43,087 bases of DNA from Bacteroidota bacterium (GTDB lineage: Bacteria; Bacteroidota; Ignavibacteria; Ignavibacteriales; Ignavibacteriaceae), in contig JADFPP010000023.1 in the NCBI GenBank assembly GCA_022562275.1, forward strand, positions 1 to 43,087, in the 5' to 3' direction. Both the position numbers and the translations under genes were made by a program. Shown one piece after another: positions 27,499-35,375 of this stretch (the stretch's first letter is position 1; the number at the start of each line of letters is the position of its first letter). The notes under the pieces are model-generated. The model ran no database searches, had not been told where the DNA came from, and saw nothing but the letters and a program-made list of their open reading frames with translations.

Positions 27499-27548
27499 CA
27501 TGTGCCAGTCACCTCTGGTCAGCAATTGCTATAGGTGACTGGCACATG
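27499..27548. repeat. REP-like hairpin, subtype A
   Basis: Perfect 16-bp inverted repeat: CATGTGCCAGTCACCT (27499-27514) and AGGTGACTGGCACATG (27533-27548) with an 18-base loop. A partial extra unit (TGTGCCAGTTTG) precedes it at 27484. Same stem as 32901-32951 and close to those at 33615 and 34261, which flank a RAYT gene. It lies between two minus-strand genes and may act as an mRNA-stabilising hairpin. Confidence 0.85.
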
Positions 27549-32877: not shown

Positions 32878-32964
32878 CACGTGCCAGTTACCTTTGCATT
32901 CATGTGCCAGTCACCACTGACTAAGAAATCCATAGAGGTGACTGGCACATGTGACTGGCACATT
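32878..32964. repeat. Nested REP-like hairpins, subtype A
   Basis: Inner perfect arms CATGTGCCAGTCACC (32901-32915) and GGTGACTGGCACATG (32937-32951). Outer, less perfect arms CACGTGCCAGTTACC (32878-32892) and GTGACTGGCACATT (32951-32964). The right outer arm runs to the stop codon (32963-32965) of the nuclease-like gene. Loop sequence resembles that of the 27499 copy more than the 33615/34261 copies. Confidence 0.85.
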
Positions 32965-33604
32965 AACCTTTTACAGCCCAAATAACATCTGTAATAGTTG
33001 TGCTACCTTGTTCAAAGTTAAATTTCATCAGATAGTTCGAATTAAATCCAACCATATATTTTTCAATCCTTTCCTTCAACCAGGAAATTTCTGCTTTCAG
33101 TTTCCAGTGCTCGCCATCAGGAGAATAAAGCACCACAAATAACCTGTTCTTTAAATGCTTCCTTTGCTGCTGAGATTGGTGTTTGTATAGCCATTTAATT
33201 AATTCATCAGTTTTTTTAACAGCTTCATTTATGGGATAAGGAAAGTTTTTGGGGAAGACAGAGGTTTTGTGATCGAATGTTACACCGTCAATTGTAAAAT
33301 CAACAAGTCTGTCTTTACTATCTAAAGCAGGTTTAACGTTTGGGAGTGAGGAGAATATTTTTTCTACTGCCTGTGCAGACCAGAAGTTGTACCATCGGTT
33401 TAAAGCATAGTTGGAAATGTTTTGATGTTCTTTATCTTTTTTGAACCTCGTGTTTATCTCTCTTAAAACATTCTCAAACAGAAAAGTACGGTAGATGAAA
33501 TTAGTTAATTTGTCAAACTGGTCGTTCTGTTTCCTTCCCCATTTATATGGATAGGTTAAACGCTTTTTTAACTGGATTTCTATATCGTTTAAATTAATAG
33601 TCAT
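32963..33604 (-). CDS. Putative type II restriction endonuclease-like protein (PD-(D/E)XK-like)
   Basis: 213 aa from the ATG at 33604. Residues 102-113 read 'DFTIDGVTFDHK', an Asp followed by D-x-K like the core of PD-(D/E)XK nucleases; hydrophobic strands 'RLFVVLYSPD' (154-163) follow as expected. 'SNYALNRWYNFWSAQAVEKI' (64-83) is a second distinctive block. The assignment as the restriction partner rests on this motif plus position downstream of a DNA methyltransferase on the same strand. The frame stays open upstream through the REP at 33615 to ATG 33679 or TTG 33685, which would add REP-encoded residues ('HVPVTSKYYLSTLKVTGT'); neither start has a good ribosome-binding site, and I favour 33604 because the core fold starts there. 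Confidence 0.6.
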   Translation of the reverse strand: MTINLNDIEIQLKKRLTYPYKWGRKQNDQFDKLTNFIYRTFLFENVLREINTRFKKDKEHQNISNYALNRWYNFWSAQAVEKIFSSLPNVKPALDSKDRLVDFTIDGVTFDHKTSVFPKNFPYPINEAVKKTDELIKWLYKHQSQQQRKHLKNRLFVVLYSPDGEHWKLKAEISWLKERIEKYMVGFNSNYLMKFNFEQGSTTITDVIWAVKG

Positions 33605-33614
33605 CTTTTTTAAA

Positions 33615-33670
33615 CATGTGCCAGTCACTTTTAAGGTGCTTAAATAGTACTTTGAAGTGACTGGCACATG
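33615..33670. repeat. REP-like hairpin, subtype B (downstream of RAYT)
   Basis: Arms CATGTGCCAGTCACTT (33615-33630) and AAGTGACTGGCACATG (33655-33670), perfect 16-bp inverted repeat; 24-base loop matches the loop at 34280-34303 in 21 positions. Same orientation as the copy at 34261. Lies between the RAYT stop and the nuclease-like gene. Confidence 0.9.
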
Positions 33671-33690
33671 AAGGCACATGAGCAATGATA

Positions 33691-34266
33691 TTATAGGTAC
33701 TTTTTCAACTTCTTAAGCTTCTGTTTTGTTGAATAATAATCCAAAACATACTTTTTATAATCAGACGGATTTGGAAAATTATTTTCTATAAACTCCTTGT
33801 CGCATAAATCACCGTTTCGTAAACCAATACATTCAGGATAATTGGAATATTTCCAATCTTCTAAATTTTTCACCAACCCAGCTTCTAATGGGTTACGATG
33901 GACATATCTGCAAACCTCAAGAACTGTTGTATCTTCATATATTTCGTTCGCTTTAAACTTTCCCTCAAAAAGAGTTCCGCTCCGGCTATACCGTTTATTA
34001 ATTGCTTTCGTATAACTGTTAAAAATATTCTGCACACATTTATTTAATCCCACTTCACTTTTTTGTCTTAAGACAAAGTGATAATGATTCGGCATCAGAC
34101 AATATGCGATTACGCAGATATCAAATTCCTTAGAGTATTTTTTCATTTTCTTTAACAGAAACAAATAGTTGTCCTCCTCAAAAAATATTTTACCCTTGTT
34201 ACAACCACGGTTGTAAACATGAAACACACTGCCTTTTTGAAATACTTCTGTTCTTCTTCCCATCAT
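33691..34266 (-). CDS. REP-associated tyrosine transposase (RAYT, Y1/HUH family)
   Basis: 191 aa. The HUH metal site is 'MPNHYHFV' (His61 and His63), the probable catalytic Tyr is Tyr85 in 'NSYTKAINKRY', and the 'YVHRNPLEAGLV' block is the usual RAYT/IS200-like C-terminal signature. RAYTs are single-copy chromosomal relatives of IS200/IS605 transposases that bind and cut REP hairpins. Two near-identical REP hairpins (33615 and 34261) flank it in the same orientation, and two related hairpins are elsewhere in the window. The ATG (34266) overlaps the methyltransferase stop (ATGA), so translation is probably coupled. It has no visible terminal repeats of its own beyond the REPs. Confidence 0.92.
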   Translation of the reverse strand: MMGRRTEVFQKGSVFHVYNRGCNKGKIFFEEDNYLFLLKKMKKYSKEFDICVIAYCLMPNHYHFVLRQKSEVGLNKCVQNIFNSYTKAINKRYSRSGTLFEGKFKANEIYEDTTVLEVCRYVHRNPLEAGLVKNLEDWKYSNYPECIGLRNGDLCDKEFIENNFPNPSDYKKYVLDYYSTKQKLKKLKKYL

Positions 34267-34322
34267 GTGCCAGGCACTTTTAGGGTGCTTAAACGGTACT
34301 TTGAAGTGCCTGGCACATGATG
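34261..34322. repeat. REP-like hairpin, subtype B (upstream of RAYT)
   Basis: Arms CATCATGTGCCAGGCACTT (34261-34279) and AAGTGCCTGGCACATGATG (34304-34322), a perfect 19-bp inverted repeat with a 24-base loop. Compared with 33615-33670 one stem base pair is changed on both arms (G-C here, T-A there), so pairing is kept. It encodes the last residues of the methyltransferase and includes the RAYT start codon. Confidence 0.92.
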
Positions 34323-35375
34323 AACATGTTGTACCTTTTGAAACAAGAAAATATACTCGTGCTTAAAAATATAAAATCCTCCCGCCAGCGCTCTATACCT
34401 CCACAATTTTTTTTGATTCATTTTTCCACGGGTTGCATCAAAATTCTTTATGATTGTAGACTTTAATATTAATCCCCGCTTCATAACTTCCTGCATTGTG
34501 TAAAAACCAAGCGGTATCCATTCACCATCAGAATATTTATCTCCTATTACAACTGCGAGATATCTTTTCTTATCTAGTACATCAACAATATTATCAATTA
34601 CTTTTCCAAATTTCTCTAAAAAATCCTCAACGGAATCAGCATTAGAAAGATCACTTTTCTTTTCGCTGAATTTAATTATATCCCAATAGGGCGGATGCAT
34701 TAAAACAAACTGAACAGAATTAATCCCAAGATTATTTAACTCGGTTTTTATATCAATCCTGGTGCTGTCTCCGCGTACAACTTTTGTTTTTATTTTGTAT
34801 GGGTTCCTTTCTTTTGCCAGATTCTTTTTTGCAAGACTTGCCACATTGGCATTTAGCTCAATTCCAATACAATTCCTACCGAGCTTTTTAGATTCAATTA
34901 ATGTAGTTCCGCTGCCTGCAAACGGGTCTAATACCCACTCACCCTTTTTTGTGTATCTTTTCAAAAACTGATTCGGTATTTGCGGAATGAAGTTACCCCA
35001 ATATCCTGCAGTATGAGCACCGGATTGATCACGTTTATCCAATATCCATAAGCTGTCGGTAATTATATCATCATATTCTTTCCACCTGTTCAAATTTATA
35101 TCGTTGATTTTAGAAGTTTTAACCTCGGTTATACTTTTCAATAATCTTTTTAAATAATATCGACTTCTCTCAATAGTTCTTGTATTAAGTATTTGCTCTA
35201 TTTCATTCAGAAAATAAGATGAACTAACTACAAGATGTTCTTTGCCAGAATTAATTTGCAGCTCGGTACTGTTAGTGTTAATTCTATTTGCAATACTTCT
35301 CAACTTTTCTTTTAAAACTTTTACATCATCCACATCGAGTATTGATATTAAAAGATTCAGGTTCAAATGATTCAC
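34263..35375 (-). CDS. DNA methyltransferase (N4-cytosine/N6-adenine type)
   Basis: 370 aa. Motif I is 'VLDPFAGSGTTLIE' (148-161) with the SAM-binding FAGSGTT, preceded by the target-motif region; motif IV is 'LMHPPYWD' (225-232), with His in place of the usual Asp/Asn/Ser before PPY. Other typical blocks: 'GRNCIGIELN' (167-175) and 'HEYIFLFQK' near the native end (339-347). Residues about 352-370 ('HHVPGTSKYRLSTLKVPGT') come from the REP hairpin, so the gene has gained a 19-residue tail. Together with the downstream PD-(D/E)XK-like gene it resembles a type II restriction-modification pair interrupted by the RAYT/REP unit. Specificity of the target base is not decided. Confidence 0.85.
   Translation of the reverse strand: MNHLNLNLLISILDVDDVKVLKEKLRSIANRINTNSTELQINSGKEHLVVSSSYFLNEIEQILNTRTIERSRYYLKRLLKSITEVKTSKINDINLNRWKEYDDIITDSLWILDKRDQSGAHTAGYWGNFIPQIPNQFLKRYTKKGEWVLDPFAGSGTTLIESKKLGRNCIGIELNANVASLAKKNLAKERNPYKIKTKVVRGDSTRIDIKTELNNLGINSVQFVLMHPPYWDIIKFSEKKSDLSNADSVEDFLEKFGKVIDNIVDVLDKKRYLAVVIGDKYSDGEWIPLGFYTMQEVMKRGLILKSTIIKNFDATRGKMNQKKLWRYRALAGGFYIFKHEYIFLFQKVQHVHHVPGTSKYRLSTLKVPGT

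Follow-up and report, generated by a model that had tools for sequence, protein, structure and literature searches.

RAYTs (TnpAREP) and their cognate REPs or REPINs constitute the systems termed REPtrons (PMC2817692, PMC3686654 and PMC8049555, here in their available parts). RAYTs are considered as vertically inherited, domesticated transposases, the exact function of which is described as unknown in the available part of PMC8049555, and the accessible text of PMC3686654 records different REP classes adjoining orthologous RAYTs. For E. coli, the replacement of a REPtron locus by a toxin/antitoxin operon is reported (PMC6006769 in its available part, citing Messing et al. 2012). In some restriction-modification (R-M) systems the genes are regulated by methylation of their cognate sites, according to the portion of PMC3874152 at hand. 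A search of the open-access literature revealed no paper in which RAYT, REPIN and restriction-modification are treated together. What is new in the locus presented here is that a RAYT-REP unit resides within a probable R-M operon and that insertions recur in the gap between its two genes.

The window, i.e. the whole stretch of 43,087 nt analysed (contig JADFPP010000023.1, positions 1-43,087, forward strand, assembly GCA_022562275.1, Ignavibacteriaceae), contains the features compiled in Table 1. All three genes of the locus are open frames, and their minus-strand order (DNA methyltransferase (MTase), REP, RAYT, REP, 213-aa protein) is that given in a preliminary description based on the sequence. 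The latter correctly listed the two REPs flanking the RAYT gene and overlooked a third and a fourth one (REP 3 and REP 4). A scan of the window against Rfam yielded zero matches at gathering scores. We favour as probable that, in a common ancestor of three or more Ignavibacteria-like species, a REPtron was inserted into a two-gene Type II R-M operon, between its MTase and nuclease genes (M-R gap), where it has remained.

Table 1. Features of the window and contents of the M-R gaps of related genomes.
Feature	Location	Strand	Basis
DNA methyltransferase (MTase), N6_N4_Mtase class	34263-35375	-	PF01555, PADLOC MTase_II, C-termini of relatives
REP/REPIN 1, with MTase stop and RAYT start codons inside	34261-34322	-	repeat search, folding
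RAYT-type HUH Y1 transposase, 191 aa	33691-34266	-	PF01797, NCBIfam, 4er8 alignment
REP/REPIN 2, ~20 nt past RAYT stop, 10 nt ahead of nuclease start	33615-33670	-	repeat comparison, folding
213-aa PD-(D/E)XK-like protein, probable restriction endonuclease	32963-33604	-	invariant residues, fold model, MTase linkage
REP/REPIN 3 and additional half-site, immediately 3' of nuclease stop	32901-32962	-	repeat search, folding
Degenerate REP half-site, 2 mismatches	32880-32893	+	repeat search
REP/REPIN 4, also of the CATG-tipped class, 5 kb off	27499-27548	.	repeat search, folding
Type-B REPs in M-R gap	G042:C1:873459-874585; G043:C1:3131949-3133269		exact pattern search
Gap content: RAYT-A	G000, G002, G006
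Gap content: IS200-like class-1 Y1 and META-gene remnant	G003
Gap content: type-B Y1 with own REPs	G042, G043
Gap content: type-B-like Y1	G049; remnant in G047
Gap content: META-like gene	5 of 25 gaps		Pfam tested in one
Gap content: HEPN/MNT and ATPase gene	G041
Gap content: no inserted gene	11 of 25 gaps, some with hairpins

The methyltransferase matches Pfam PF01555 (E 1.7e-24) and the PADLOC model MTase_II PDLC03351 (E 3.9e-143), and both matches identify it as a DNA methyltransferase, as expected for a Type II R-M system. For the 213-aa protein no match was obtained in Pfam, PADLOC or PHROG, none above an NCBIfam cut-off and nothing below E 1 among the PDB sequences. Its modelled structure is confident (pLDDT 92). 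The fold matches in the PDB, many of them to restriction or related nucleases, are weak, with a best Z of 4.0 and a Foldseek E of 0.048; an assignment to a known nuclease subfamily was abandoned, as no listed fold match was strong enough. A search of genome contigs provided 55 relatives, and in 38 aligned sequences (37 relative loci and the window) the residues E81, D102, D111 and K113, corresponding to the PD-(D/E)XK pattern, are invariant. Among 80 genomes of the window's family the nuclease is matched in 32, strongly in 29, and in 25 of the latter it adjoins an N6_N4 MTase. These 25 form the set of M-R gaps compared below, which leaves out the weak matches G008, G032 and G073 as well as G062 and G065, where the nuclease lies at a contig end with its 5' side missing, and G046 and G055, where the stretch examined holds no such MTase. 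In 32 of 39 further loci (L021-L059) the nuclease occurs linked with an unrelated MTase of the D12 class (identity of the MTase checked by Pfam in 8 of them), the gap being at most 6 nt in 22 of the 32. Homologues of the 213-aa protein that are never next to methyltransferases, as considered in the preliminary description, are thus not what was found. The pairing of one nuclease family with two unrelated DNA MTase classes argues for a restriction endonuclease, and we regard this function as probable for the 213-aa protein; the avoidance of CATG would be an indirect sign of activity on the target of the MTase. The two neighbouring genes, the DNA-specific MTase family and the D...DxK motif are shared with established Type II systems containing a PD-(D/E)XK nuclease, from which the window differs by the lack of a library family match for its nuclease and by the two unrelated MTase classes with which this family pairs. 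Nuclease fragments with stops are present elsewhere (G000:C38:23433-23558 and G005:C44:207425-207526) and are probably remnants of other copies.

The observed/expected ratio of CATG averages 0.45 in 11 nuclease-positive stretches (10 of 20 kb and the window) vs 0.75 in 10 nuclease-negative genomes (p 0.002), the two sets being unmatched in kinship and in G+C (0.42-0.45 in some nuclease-negative genomes). This is the strongest difference among the 16 four-base palindromes (p times 16 is ~0.03); TCGA also differs between the sets (p 0.008). A first comparison of loci of mixed origin gave a weaker contrast (0.45 vs 0.57) and is superseded by that of the 20-kb stretches. In the window CATG is depleted with a ratio of 0.60, which ranks among the weakest depletions of the nuclease-positive stretches. 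The genome G053 (L244) has a ratio of 0.10 without the nuclease, which suggests another CATG-specific system and speaks against a simple reading of the CATG values unless G053 indeed holds such a system. CATG is the lowest palindrome in 18 of 32 further loci, mostly flavobacterial and compared without a flavobacterial control set (L030, L036, L045, L050, L057 and L058 were left out), and its pooled ratio over a slightly different set of further loci is 0.36. Within the window CATG occurs 0 times in 1,046 nt of the MTase gene, 0 times in 638 nt of the nuclease gene and once in 567 nt of the RAYT gene, and 10 of its 64 copies reside in the REPs (277 nt). Considering the unmatched sets, the genome G053 and the weak value of the window, we infer from the avoidance that CATG is the likely target of nuclease and MTase. 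The 213-aa proteins probably form a family of restriction endonucleases that is not covered by a model in any of the libraries searched, with CATG as predicted target.

The transposase matches PF01797 (Y1_Tnp; E 9.7e-12), scores 75.1 bits against the NCBIfam model REP_Tyr_transpos NF047646, below the cut-off of 80, and can be aligned with TnpAREP 4er8 at both the HUH and the Tyr motif, with a weak E of 0.065. Its HUH motif reads NHYH and its catalytic Tyr motif YVHRNP (Y---NP type), similar to the motifs of subclass 2.1 of PMC6006769, for which the available part of that source reports no REPs; the similarity refers to motifs and not to profiles. The gene is single-copy, the next-best protein of its own genome being 42% identical. 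An identity as IS200/IS605 insertion sequence was dropped, since multiple near-identical copies are absent from the genome; the Y1_Tnp domain is common to the window RAYT and the IS200/IS605 transposases, from which the former deviates by its single copy, the class-2 Y---NP motif and the bordering REPINs. RAYT-A, i.e. the window type at an identity of at least 77%, occurs in 3 of the 80 family genomes and every time in the M-R gap. RAYT relatives of 54-56% identity at L142 and L143 have common neighbours at another locus in two genera.

REP 1 consists of two perfect 19-nt arms and REP 2 of 21-nt arms with a complementarity of 90%. Their folding energies are -35.6 kcal/mol (z -7.0 vs shuffles) and -28.1 kcal/mol (z -6.6 vs shuffles), respectively. 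Aligned as direct repeats, the two are 91% identical over 57 nt including the loop, in agreement with the common orientation, stem and loop ascribed to them earlier; as each REP is a REPIN-like inverted pair, its orientation has to be judged by the loop. The sequence TGTGCCWGKCACYT is matched with up to 2 mismatches 13 times in the window (expected 1.04), a number reached in 0 of 100 shuffles. The CATG-tipped half-site CATGTGCCAGTCAC was found in 3 of 80 genomes, exactly the RAYT-A carriers, and REPINs, as defined by one search pattern, number 11, 16 and 9 in the three carriers, 1 in G005 and 0 in the other 76. Across the 80 genomes cognate REPs are therefore abundant only where the RAYT gene is present, and solely the short hairpins, not the RAYT, are dispersed in the genome. 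The RAYT presumably copies REPINs via single-stranded DNA. The REPIN tips are CATG or near it at the locus and mostly AA/TT elsewhere (window REPs; L119-L128, L149-L166), with a few CATG-tipped REPINs off the locus at 27.5 kb of the window, in G002 (C99 and C104) and in G006 (C296). The loops differ among the three carrier genomes and are more similar inside each of them.

By its motifs, its flanking REPs and the coupling between REPs and gene, the unit of the window is a RAYT-REP system. As far as the available parts of the REPtron papers go, it corresponds to the described REPtrons in the HUH and single-Tyr motifs, the REPs on both sides, the single-copy gene, the abundance of cognate REPs only together with the gene and the differing REP loops beside orthologous RAYTs. 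It deviates in its location inside an R-M operon, in low REPIN numbers (9-16), in CATG-tipped locus REPs unlike most of the dispersed copies, and in the lack of the GTAG/CGTC tag from locus and dispersed tips alike. The window REPs were consequently not assigned to the GTAG- or CGTC-tagged superfamilies as these appear in the accessible part of PMC3733652.

A window-type RAYT is present in 3 of the 25 MTase-nuclease gaps (the window included) and absent from 22, so that retention by all relatives, contemplated in the preliminary description, does not apply. In G039 and G040 the MTase and nuclease genes overlap by 4 nt (ATGA), and G004 and G005, which belong to the genus of the window, have short gaps without a window-type REP. 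These empty sites imply that the unit was inserted. The comparison with loci lacking the block, called for in the preliminary description, thus supports its idea of an insertion into an R-M pair. The unit is not a recent or active block, as the RAYT is kept in place in two congeners with 77-80% identity, a value close to those of its neighbours, and has no counterpart above 42% identity in its own genome. In the MTase, the conserved core ends at FLFQK near 34335 according to a comparison of the C-termini of relatives. Most relatives terminate a few codons past this point; the window MTase does not and carries a 23-residue extension, of which ~19 residues are read from REP 1, and its TGA overlaps the ATG of the RAYT gene. 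The MTase end of G043 is likewise altered and longer, running into type-B repeats.

Among the three carriers the identities amount to 77-84% for the RAYT, 83-90% for the nuclease and 73-77% for the MTase. As the RAYTs diverged approximately as their neighbours and have a dN/dS of 0.05-0.18, the insertion probably predates the split of the three species. A single clade of the carriers is not rejected (AU p 0.18); in a larger tree G004, which has no RAYT, groups among the carriers (support 78), making one gain and one loss, or two gains, possible. Between G000 and G002 the synonymous difference pS is lower for the RAYT (0.41) than for the nuclease (0.63) and the MTase (0.74), which hints at a later exchange. 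A sharp recombinant block around the RAYT was discarded, the windowed identity having no clear edge. On the whole, the RAYT seems to have been inherited since its insertion.

The preliminary description alternatively suggested that the insertion uncoupled the nuclease from the MTase; the nuclease might then be decaying or have a new role. In line with this, neither overlap nor contact is left between the MTase and nuclease genes, the MTase of the window bears a foreign tail and the CATG ratio of the window is at the weak end of its set. We nevertheless hold a loss of coupling to be highly improbable: the frames are intact, the catalytic residues are invariant in all 38 sequences, the dN/dS of the nuclease (0.06-0.12 in computable pairs) is well below 1, CATG is still depleted in the window and its avoidance tracks the nuclease. 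A decay of the nuclease was dropped on account of the intact frames and conserved residues. According to the favoured scenario of an inserted and retained REPtron, the R-M pair would still be functional, probably recognizing CATG, and the gap would tolerate passengers, M and R presumably not needing a tight translational coupling. The passengers might be kept because a deletion removing M and sparing R would be lethal to the cell.

The preliminary description also overlooked that unrelated elements have used the gap repeatedly. A Y1 gene or its remnant was detected in 8 of the 25 M-R gaps (Table 1); as toxin-antitoxin genes, the gap of G006 additionally holds a PIN gene with a partner gene and that of G041 the HEPN/MNT genes. 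The Y1 of the G003 gap has the motif YIRNQEEHH, resembling YIKNQKEHH of subclass 1.2, a low-copy subclass of class 1 in the available part of PMC6006769. Type B has its closer counterparts elsewhere, at 57-71% in six genomes, compared with 49% for the G049 gene, and the gaps of the near relatives G039 and G045 are clean; about four Y1 arrivals are therefore likely, or three if type B and the type-B-like gene share one. The 99 Y1_Tnp matches of the 25 genomes correspond to an expectation of ~0.03 arrivals per gap. The flanks of these 25 loci, 207 kb with ~186 gaps, yielded only 1 Y1 gene (G034, 3.3 kb downstream of the nuclease), and the chance that 3 of 4 further events, the window's own being uncounted, fall into the M-R gap is P 0.006. 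The null models for these estimates are crude, with uniform gaps and a hand-chosen gap, and the independent events are few. These numbers count against the explanation that the gap is not special, i.e. that R-M loci lie in variable regions, Y1 and toxin-antitoxin genes land in any intergenic space and their clustering is coincidental. This explanation is nonetheless in accord with the 11 of 25 gaps without an inserted gene, the 5 gaps with a META-like gene only and the observation that none of the 39 further loci (L021-L059) contains a Y1 gene, which confines the observed Y1 preference to one R-M arrangement. It also accords with other recurrences of Y1 genes: 5 of 119 neighbour proteins at control Y1 loci match Sigma54_activat (e.g. 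L170, L176, L184 and L218), a gene common to L173 and L201 (66% identical) adjoins two different Y1 genes (37%), and several more flanks (33-50% identity) recur at loci whose Y1 genes differ. Y1 genes consequently have other favoured neighbours. Altogether, we judge a gap without special properties to be unlikely, although worth serious consideration.

The control loci mentioned are 62 other Y1 loci, hand-picked among the matches listed, 60 of them from the 25 genomes, and leaving out L226 (a REPIN region) and the flanking Y1 of G034. In 0 of 62 cases did the fetched flank match the MTase of the window, a D12-class MTase or the nuclease (tblastn, E 1e-4), and the 25 Pfam families listed for the 119 neighbour proteins, from which single-member families are omitted, include no DNA methyltransferase. 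Six of the 119 match ResIII, which as a helicase domain is not confined to restriction enzymes. With PADLOC these neighbours gave many matches to broad ATPase-like models, and these were set aside. A general vicinity of Y1 genes to R-M systems of this kind was dropped on the basis of the 62 loci and the Pfam families.

Elements other than Y1 genes also reside between M and R. In the Flavobacteria loci L026 and L043, PIN-family toxin-antitoxin pairs are located between the nuclease and the D12 MTase, and at L025 (5687-8154) an HTH gene, a C5 MTase gene and a gene for a 312-aa protein, likely a second R-M system, are nested there. The M-R gap therefore looks like a recurrent docking site for Y1 and toxin-antitoxin genes. 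As in the E. coli case (PMC6006769 in its available part), RAYT and toxin-antitoxin genes are found at a common chromosomal site, depending on the strain or species; in the present case this site is the M-R gap of a probable Type II system, and several kinds of Y1 are involved. A more far-reaching proposal, in our estimation decidedly unlikely, is that the gap of the addictive R-M pair serves as a sheltered docking site for selfish elements, among which would be RAYT-REP units, other Y1 genes, toxin-antitoxin pairs and even a second R-M system, and that REP processing or operon expression might be controlled through methylation, by the MTase, of the docked REPs, which in the window lineage bear the likely target CATG at both tips. 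The CATG tips are noteworthy since some R-M systems are known to control their genes through methylated cognate sites (PMC3874152, available part). Should passengers indeed be sheltered in the gap, R-M systems would be safe harbours for selfish genes. In the G041 gap a truncated start of the nuclease gene (L020 ~3569) separates the HEPN/MNT pair from the ATPase gene.

Alternatively, the REPs themselves may be under selection as regulators of the MTase:nuclease ratio, lowering nuclease translation or ending transcripts early, with the RAYT as passenger; such a role would offer a concrete host-visible use for REPs. In all three carriers a REP is located inside or at most ~20 nt from the stop codons of the MTase, RAYT and nuclease genes alike, and a REP end lies 8-19 nt upstream of the nuclease start. 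The four hairpins of the window are stable, with -28 to -36 kcal/mol (folding done for the window hairpins alone), and hairpins are kept without a Y1 gene in the gaps of G030, G061, G026 and G029. Moreover, the exact type-B REP GCTCAACCTNAAGGTTGAGGCTACC occurs in 6 copies each in G042 and G043, solely in the M-R gap, and in 0 copies in the rest of the 80 genomes. Against a selected function stand the intact pairs of relatives without REPs and the scan of the window for promoters and terminators, which revealed no excess vs shuffles. REPs usually sit after stop codons, a habit that also counts against selection as a regulator of the M:R ratio. We thus consider such a selection as possible, if rather doubtful. 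The preferred course of events, an inserted REPtron that stayed, includes a related effect: the hairpins at the stop codons and before the nuclease start would probably reduce nuclease translation relative to the MTase.

Two observations concern the repeats of other gaps. Between the type-B Y1 and the nuclease lie tandem units of 180 bp (L131 4200-4586, G042) or 164 bp (L014 4469-4849, G043) in which REPs are joined to the terminal ~60 bp of the MTase gene, which indicates that the 3' end of the MTase gene was copied together with the repeats in both genomes. The PIN-domain gene in the gap of G006 (L006 4001-4318) terminates within a REP, as does the MTase gene of the window.
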